Assembly (NCBI GenBank): GCA_027627705.1
Contig: CP091242.1
Coordinates: 1,305,529 to 1,369,528 of the forward strand
Source: Hyphomonadaceae bacterium BL14
GTDB taxonomy: Bacteria > Pseudomonadota > Alphaproteobacteria > Caulobacterales > Maricaulaceae
Length of the DNA: 64,000 nucleotides
Direction of reading: 5' to 3'
Part shown: positions 4,641 through 24,350 of the stretch, in pieces
Position numbering within the stretch: position 1 is the stretch's first letter
How the letters are laid out: the number at the start of each line of letters is the position of its first letter
Translations under genes and position numbers: made by a program
Notes under the pieces: model-generated
Database searches by the model: none
The model's input: only the letters and a program-made list of their open reading frames with translations
Told to the model about the DNA's origin: nothing

Positions 4641-7307
<2,667 letters not shown>

Positions 7308-22207: not shown

Positions 22208-22714
22208 TCAAACCCGCTCCAGCACCCGCGCCACAAAGGCGGCATCATCGCCCGCGCCCGCCGCCACGCGCTCAGCCGTGACTTCGCGCCACACCCCCGG
22301 GTCGAGCGCCGGGAAGTGCGAATCGCCCTCGGGCTCCAGATCGACTTCGGTCAGGTAAATGCGCGCCGCGCGGTCCAGCACCGCGGCGTAAATCTGCGCG
22401 CCGCCAATGATACAGATCTCGGATGCGCCCTGCGCCATGGCTGCCTCTTGCGCGGCCTTCAGCGCGGCATCGAGATCGGGCCGGACCAGCGCACCAGGCG
22501 TCTCCGCCAGCGTCCGGCTCACCACGATATTGACCCGGCCCGGCAAGGGCTTGCGCGGCAGGCTGTCCCAGGTCTTGCGCCCCATCACCACCGGCTTGCC
22601 CAGCGTGACCTGCTTGAATCGCTTCAAATCCGACGAAATCCGCCACGGCAGATCGCCGTCCCGGCCGATGACGCCGTTTCGGGCGACGGCGACGACGAGG
22701 GCGATGGGGGTCAA
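22208..22714 (-). CDS. folA: dihydrofolate reductase
   Basis: NADPH-dependent reduction of dihydrofolate, paired with thyA. 168 residues. Motifs: ALVVAVARNGVIGRDGDLPW, the conserved acidic residue in SSDLKRFKQ, VVMGRKTWDSLP, NIVVSR and CIIGGAQIYAAVL. The start is TTG, overlapping the stop of the upstream unknown gene in the form TTGA, so translation is probably coupled to the inserted cassette. A 136-nt gap separates it from hflK. Confidence 0.95.
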   Translation of the reverse strand: MTPIALVVAVARNGVIGRDGDLPWRISSDLKRFKQVTLGKPVVMGRKTWDSLPRKPLPGRVNIVVSRTLAETPGALVRPDLDAALKAAQEAAMAQGASEICIIGGAQIYAAVLDRAARIYLTEVDLEPEGDSHFPALDPGVWREVTAERVAAGAGDDAAFVARVLERV

Positions 22715-23091
22715 AGCGCCATCCGGTAAACGTAGGCGTCTTCAATGTAGACGCCGTCTATCCAGTTTCCTGTGAACCGGGTGCCACTCATGCCATCAAC
22801 CCGCATGAATTTTGACAATGCCCGAACCAGAGGATCGCTAGCAGGAAGCAGTTTTATGTCAGACAGATCGAACGGCGTGGATTGCTGATTGAATGCCCGG
22901 CGGATCTTCAGGAGTTCGTCGGTCACAGCCCCGCCGCTGAAACCTTCAGGCACGATAACGAGCCTCCACCCACCCAGCTCTGAGTAATAATTCCAGAATG
23001 CGGCGCACACAGGATAGCCGTTGGAATCAAGCGATCGCAGCGCCGCCTCGCCTGAGGCAACGCGATCATTCACCAGAACGTCTTGATCCAT
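22711..23091 (-). CDS. unknown 126-residue protein paired with a HEPN gene
   Basis: I do not recognise this protein. It begins MDQDVLVNDR, has a Trp/Tyr-rich centre (FWNYYSELGGWRLVIVPEGF) and no signal or membrane segment, so it is probably cytoplasmic. Its start lies inside the 3' end of the restored HEPN frame (22-nt overlap), and its stop overlaps the folA start. This two-gene layout between thyA and folA looks like an inserted cassette; a toxin-antitoxin or RNase-partner pair is a possible reading. Function unproven. Confidence 0.65.
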   Translation of the reverse strand: MDQDVLVNDRVASGEAALRSLDSNGYPVCAAFWNYYSELGGWRLVIVPEGFSGGAVTDELLKIRRAFNQQSTPFDLSDIKLLPASDPLVRALSKFMRVDGMSGTRFTGNWIDGVYIEDAYVYRMAL

Positions 23092-23490
23092 GCCTGAATT
23101 CCTTCCTTATCGACAGCAGCCGAAACGAACTCTGTGGCCTCCGGACGAGAGATTGTCTCATAACGCGCTGTAATGGACCATGCCCGAACGACCGACCATC
23201 GCACCTCGAACCTCGAACGTTACGTCCTCAACCAGCCTTGCTTGCAGCTGAGCTTTGATGCCGGCAAGCCCAATCAATTCGTCCAACTGGTGCGAATGAG
23301 CGCGCTCAACAATTTTCCTGTCAGGCAAAACACCATCGAGAAAACGATCGCAAATAAGCGCCTTCAGGCTGCACTCGACCGCGATCCCAGCCAGATGAAC
23401 CGCATTGGTGTGCCGATGTGCCTCTAGCAGCATGTGCGCATCTTCTGCATGCATCTCTGCCAGTTGCTGGAACTGCCGCTTTGAGGTCAT
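23070..23490 (-). pseudogene. HEPN-domain protein gene with a single-base frameshift
   Basis: The first frame gives 110 residues with HEPN-like features: MHAEDAHMLLEAHRHTNAVH, LAGIAVECSLKALICDRFL, and near its end RSGMVH, which fits the RX4-6H catalytic motif of HEPN ribonucleases. That frame stops at 23158. A one-base shift near 23160 opens a further 29 codons (YETISRPEATEFVSAAVDKE..., ending KTFW) that read like the missing last HEPN helix and stop at 23070, overlapping the next gene. Either the gene is recently broken or the base is a sequencing error. It begins 8 nt after thyA. Confidence 0.7.
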
Positions 23491-23498
23491 CTAATGCC

Positions 23499-24350
23499 TC
23501 ACACCGCCACCGGTGCCTTGATCGCCGGATGCGGGTCATAGCCCTCCAGCGATATGTGCTCGTACTCCAAGGCGAACAAATCGGTCACTGACGGGTCCAG
23601 CATCAGGCGCGGCGCACGGCGCGGCGTGCGCGACAGCTGCTCACGCACCTGGTCCATGTGGTTTGTGTAGATGTGGGCGTCACCAAACGTGTGAATGTAT
23701 TCACCCGGCTCATATCCCGTAGCCCGCGCCACCATGCACAGCAGCAGCGCATAGCTGGCGATATTGAACGGCACGCCCAGGAACATGTCGGCGCTGCGCT
23801 GGTAGAGCTGCAGGTGCAGGCGTCCGCCCAGCACCTTGAACTGGAACAGGGTGTGGCAGGGCGGCAGGGCCATGGAGGGCACGTCCGCCGGGTTCCAGGC
23901 TGACAGGATCAGGCGGCGGCTGTCGGGCGTAGAGCGAATCGCCTCGAGCAGATCGGCCAGCTGATCGATCTCCCGCCCGTCCGGGCCGGTCCAGCGCCGC
24001 CATTGCTTGCCGTAGACCGGGCCGAGCTCCCCGTCCGCGTCGGCCCACTCGTTCCAGATCGACACCCCGCGCTCCTGCAGCCAGCGCACATTGGTCATGC
24101 CCTTGATAAACCAGAGCAGCTCCACGGCCACGGACTTGAAATGCACCTTCTTTGTGGTCAGGAGCGGGAAGCCACCGGCGAGATCACAGCGGATCTGGCG
24201 GCCGAACACGGCGCGCGTGCCGGTGCCGGTACGGTCGCTCTGGTCTTGGCCGGTCTCGATGATCTCACGCAGGAGGTCGAGATAGGCGCGCTCGGCCGGC
24301 GAGCCTGCAGCGTCGCGGGACAAATCGGGATGAGGGTGGGCCATCGCCAT
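23499..24350 (-). CDS. thyA: thymidylate synthase
   Basis: Methylates dUMP using methylene-tetrahydrofolate; dihydrofolate is recycled by FolA. 283 residues. Visible are [35 protein letters not shown], the catalytic Cys in [14 protein letters not shown] (near 163), [20 protein letters not shown] and the terminal IKAPVAV. The divergent VOC gene starts 188 nt upstream. Confidence 0.97.

Follow-up and report, generated by a model that had tools for sequence, protein, structure and literature searches.

A damaged copy of a HEPN-partner gene pair, also found on plasmids and in phages, between thyA and folA of Hyphomonadaceae bacterium BL14

Results

We analysed a stretch of 64,000 nucleotides (nt) from the genome of Hyphomonadaceae bacterium BL14 (contig CP091242.1, positions 1,305,529 to 1,369,528; referred to as a whole as the window), in which a HEPN-type gene and a small partner gene lie between the genes for thymidylate synthase (thyA) and dihydrofolate reductase (folA). 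On the minus strand, thyA (23499-24350; Pfam PF00303, 394 bits) is followed after 8 nt by a HEPN frame of 110 codons (23158-23490), by the intact partner gene of 126 codons (22711-23091) and by folA (22208-22714; Pfam PF00186, 169 bits). This layout had been described in a reading of the sequence alone and agrees with the DNA, as does the coupling of the partner on both sides: the remainder of the HEPN gene, read in another frame (23070-23219, 49 codons plus stop), ends 22 nt inside the partner gene (23070-23091), exactly where a restored HEPN frame had been expected to end, and the partner stop overlaps the TTG start of folA by 4 nt (22711-22714). A sister species of the same genus (L002) displays the same gene order, with an intact first gene of 137 residues, a partner that is 88% identical and the same 4-nt overlap with folA, there with an ATG start.

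The HEPN gene is broken in the window, as the sequence-only reading had noticed, with the HEPN profile (A7) matching in two frames, at 23161-23490 (profile positions 2-98, 109 bits) and at 23073-23219 (profile positions 90-138, 51 bits). Where these frames cross, the heptamer CCTCGAA stands twice in exact tandem (23204-23217), forming a 14-mer which is unique on the plus strand of the window; the repeat is absent from L002, and in the DNA alignment with L002 the window has 7 extra nt in this region. The shift coincides with the repeat, and the one-base change near 23160 that had been proposed is rejected. Only about the first 92 residues of the 110-codon frame are in the frame of the family, and since everything past the crossing is shifted, RSGMVH (about 23173-23190, downstream of the shift), which had been taken for an RX4H motif, lies in the wrong frame and is an artefact; read in the other frame, the same DNA encodes the W-X4-R-Y of the family, followed by its conserved C-terminus.

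The pair is under purifying selection, the ratio of non-synonymous to synonymous substitution rates (dN/dS) between the window and L002 being 0.09 in the partner, 0.10 and 0.12 across the two parts of the HEPN gene, and 0.16 in folA. The low values before and after the shift as well as in the partner suggest that the damage is either recent or an assembly error. We consider it possible, rather than probable, that an assembly or sequencing error is at fault and that the organism possesses an intact pair, a reading compatible with both functional models discussed below. Errors of this kind could produce short exact tandem repeats, the dN/dS values speak against long decay, and there are intact relatives, L002 and P0128; the assembly, however, consists of a single 3.03 Mb contig, and short tandem duplications also arise frequently by mutation. 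The HEPN frame in the window now terminates 66 nt ahead of the partner start, so that partner output should fall as well if translation of the two genes is coupled.

HEPN gene and partner are a genuine two-gene module. Starting from the partner, a HEPN gene was found immediately upstream in all 15 distinct confident loci; that the partner might instead be a housekeeping gene occurring alone had been set beforehand as the outcome to check for, and is rejected by this result. Starting from the HEPN profile, which was built from paired relatives, the partner lies immediately downstream in 36 of 37 loci, a set that includes L069-L080, all with one HEPN sequence, and a weak pair on a Lichenicola plasmid (partner E 4.6e-6). 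The HEPN gene precedes the partner in every pair examined; among 29 distinct pairs, 27 overlap by 22 nt and two by 19 nt. Tree distances of HEPN and partner correlate (25 pairs, r 0.68, 0/9,999). The same pair occurs between thyA and folA (L002) as well as elsewhere, on plasmids and in phages. One further partner match (L016, E 9e-4), located in a frame of 596 amino acids (aa) without HEPN, was set aside as probably spurious.

Structural comparison reveals the helical HEPN fold in the first protein, and the E-x3-K acidic site is kept (E39 in 61 of 61 aligned HEPN relatives, K43 in 98%), which bears out the HEPN identity assigned to this gene. RX4-6H, which is usual though not universal among HEPN proteins, has to be rejected as a motif of the family, being absent at the motif position in all 61 relatives, every one of which has W-X4-R-Y there; the pattern turns up elsewhere in the sequence in 11 of the 61 rows, and C-terminal to residue 85 in 0 of 26. 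The argument for a canonical HEPN RNase therefore fails. H67 and R107, the latter being part of the Arg-Tyr at 107/108, are invariant in all 61 relatives. For the AF0298-like HEPN-T/AbiV group, loss of the motif His, retention of the basic residue and an additional conserved His on the N-terminal side of the motif have been described (PMC3710099), and the same arrangement is found here with R107 and H67. Judged by these residues, the HEPN protein is of the AF0298/AbiV-like kind, with an alternative Glu/His/Arg set instead of R-X4-6-H, and Glu39, His67 and Arg107 possibly constitute an alternative active site. Scores for the AbiV families stay below the cut-offs, both for PF18728 (17.9 bits for the window piece, 15.7 for L002 and 20.8 for L003, cut-off 27.1) and for TIGR04498 (16.3 bits for the window piece, cut-off 27). 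The HEPN piece of the window matches PDC-M28A of PADLOC, the first component of PDC-M28 (E 4.6e-12), and the HEPN proteins fall into PHROG 5737 (E 9e-96 for that of E. coli, 1.9e-19 for that of L002).

For the partner, a confident alpha/beta fold is predicted (AlphaFold pLDDT 91). Its best Foldseek rows are entries for HEPN with a minimal nucleotidyltransferase (MNT), and its top structural neighbours repeatedly include MNTs that act as antitoxins to HEPN toxins, with all scores below significance. At the sequence level, profile comparison by hhalign gave a score of 11.4 for partner against MNT, which is under the best of 40 column shuffles (14.3); as controls, unrelated HEPN against MNT scored 15.2 and two MNT subsets reached 99% probability. 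The D-h-D-h motif is found in 0 of 79 partners, all of which have W33 and W42, compared to GS..DxD in 17 of 17 control MNTs. A looser pattern matched 15 of the 79 partners, for which inspection by eye points to an acidic turn as the cause. The earlier statement that the partner is not an MNT thus holds for its sequence, while MNT-type structures among the best, non-significant fold neighbours leave it less secure for the fold. No match was obtained in BFVD at E<=0.001, and among sequences of solved structures five rows appeared at E<=1 (three designed SAKe proteins, muskelin and Bte1), none with a self-sufficient stretch; a further search for relatives of this type returned none. PADLOC models gave no match for the window-type partner and a weak one to PDC-M02B (E 0.048) for the E. 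coli partner. Both belong to PHROG 5760, with E 6.9e-90 for the E. coli and 1.8e-5 for the window partner. The window genome yielded a single partner match at E<=1, and hence no second copy.

The module occurs in several phyla, on plasmids and in phages, and its distribution is sporadic. With the own genome counted where sampled, the partner was detected in 4 of 99 relatives, 7 of 348 genomes of the order (one doubtful), 3 of 385 of the class and 4 of 398 of the phylum (the latter two samples sharing some genomes) and 2 of 321 gammaproteobacteria. These counts are probably low, since the contig scan gave no more than 3 relatives and the first protein search 8 proteins including the window's own. 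Further copies of the partner reside on an Acinetobacter plasmid, in Klebsiella phage Kp4864-1 and in viral contigs. Among complete E. coli genomes, 189 of 5,426 (3.5%) carry the module; the three regions inspected are lambdoid prophages, in which the pair is positioned between the replication gene P and ninE/rusA/Q, and a scan for promoters and terminators near the E. coli pair gave nothing above chance. Ordinary annotation of the two genes is seen in 59 of the 60 E. coli matches listed; in one strain, the HEPN gene is split beside an intact partner. A Deinococcus plasmid encodes a 460-aa protein (L022, 4995-6377) whose N-terminal part is the partner and whose C-terminal part matches DUF3800. 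Prophage Gifsy-1 carries a HEPN gene of unspecified family, STM14_3211, within a variable region; according to PMC9879122, its deletion left RtcR activation unchanged.

The slot between thyA and folA is itself variable. folA is present in 95 of the 99 relatives, and in the 30 best-matching of these 95 loci thyA adjoins in 29, with a gap of less than 30 nt in 14 and of at least 190 nt in 15 (window included). Among what fills the large gaps are the HEPN pair, a solo HEPN gene, another HEPN-type gene, MazG-like genes and, judged by eye, small membrane-like proteins. Five of the 99 genomes (own included) carry this HEPN, four of them in the slot. The trees neither establish nor reject a single ancient entry into the slot, shared by the window's family and Brevundimonas (p-AU 0.36 for HEPN and 0.09 for the partner). 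In another species of the same genus (G008, L031), the slot is occupied by a 230-aa Hypoth_Ymh protein (63 bits) with RNGTHH, a canonical-looking HEPN motif. MazG-like genes lie between thyA and folA in L004, L010, L046-L049, L051 and L053, of which two were scanned with Pfam, L047 scoring above and L004 below the cut-off for PRA-PH, and the others were recognised by eye; a nucleotide-pool operon is a plausible context for them. In L010, a Brevundimonas metagenome-assembled genome, the pair and the MazG-like gene are followed, still ahead of folA, by a protein (4701-5510) with a match of HSDR_N type, the N-terminus of restriction enzymes.

Discussion

We propose a model, in which we place about as much belief as doubt, where the window holds, in damaged form, a mobile two-gene module whose partner holds or directs an AF0298/AbiV-like HEPN protein that cuts or blocks RNA. 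The partner, starting 22 nt before the HEPN stop, would probably be translated by ribosomes finishing the HEPN gene and would then bind the HEPN protein, which it would hold or direct; once released, HEPN would cut or block RNA, for example during phage infection. The partner itself, a small alpha/beta protein, may be related to the MNTs that restrain other HEPN toxins while being catalytically inactive. The module probably has an anti-phage role.

Two results weigh against strict pairing. At the protein level, the HEPN profile yielded 4,793 matches and the partner profile, built from 12 sequences, 325. In addition, genome G028 contains a HEPN gene with the conserved residues between thyA and folA, its stop overlapping the folA start by 4 nt, and has no partner match at E<=1, which argues against a strict need of the HEPN protein for its partner. 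Because this HEPN is sister to that of L002 (support 97/95), loss of the partner in G028 is the simpler reading. A solo HEPN and the position of the pair in lambdoid prophages give room for a non-toxic role, in which HEPN and partner would jointly form a regulatory or RNA-binding complex, one that phages might use in lytic growth. The missing RX4-6H, the HEPN gene being placed ahead of the partner, the location between P and ninE/rusA/Q, the persistence of HEPN in G028 and that of the partner beside a broken HEPN gene in the window and in one E. coli strain would all agree with such a complex. We still regard it as unlikely, since sporadic spread on mobile elements fits conflict genes better, the invariance of Glu, His and Arg hints at an active site, and the relatives AbiV and PDC-M28A have a role, or a candidate role, in defence.

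More tentatively, the partner could be a pseudo-nucleotidyltransferase, i.e. an MNT antitoxin that has lost GS/DxD, has two invariant Trp in their place and restrains, by binding, a HEPN RNase with a moved active site (Glu39, His67, Arg107); the pair would then be a HEPN-MNT system rebuilt with neither classical motif, its gene order reversed and its 22-nt overlap fixed, and would act as a phage defence disseminated by prophages and plasmids. The absence of the Foldseek-favoured HEPN-MNT entries from VIA's own ranking argues against this reading, which we hold to be doubtful. An ordinary HEPN/MNT type II toxin-antitoxin with an RX4-6H RNase, to which the HEPN fold and the leading, non-significant Foldseek rows of the partner would be suited, is very improbable given the missing RX4-6H, two invariant Trp in place of D-h-D-h, the reversed gene order and the lack of sequence similarity between partner and MNT.

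The conservation of the 22-nt overlap between lineages far apart strongly suggests that the two proteins are produced in a coupled manner. A usually paired family present in 3.5% of the complete E. coli genomes searched makes it testable in laboratory E. coli whether HEPN proteins without the textbook motif are active. RSGMVH further illustrates how reading DNA out of frame can simulate a catalytic motif. The literature searched, outside of which most subscription papers fall, yielded no published account of the pair, and the HEPN passages of PMC13092281 and PMC9519451 contain none; likewise, no paper on PDC-M28 was found there.

Among known systems, the module HEPN is marginally alike in sequence to the AF0298-like HEPN-T (PDB 2hsb) and to lactococcal AbiV (PDB 9bj6). 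Module members scanned with Pfam HEPN_AbiV and HEPN remained below the cut-off, and some database relatives do carry PF05168. The phage families PHROG 5737 and 5760 accommodate HEPN and partner, respectively, but both are annotated as of 'unknown function' and are not presented as a pair. PDC-M28 shares its first component with the module, whereas the module partner has no PDC-M28 match and PDC-M28 is a candidate only. From HepT-MntA (SO_3166-SO_3165), where the MNT gene lies 5' of HEPN, the module differs in its reversed order, the 22-nt overlap and the lack of both RX4-6H and GS...DxD, while the two systems have in common two small genes encoding HEPN and a small alpha/beta protein, with MNT-type folds among the nearest, though not significantly, to the partner. 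The module may represent a new sub-type of bacterial defence.
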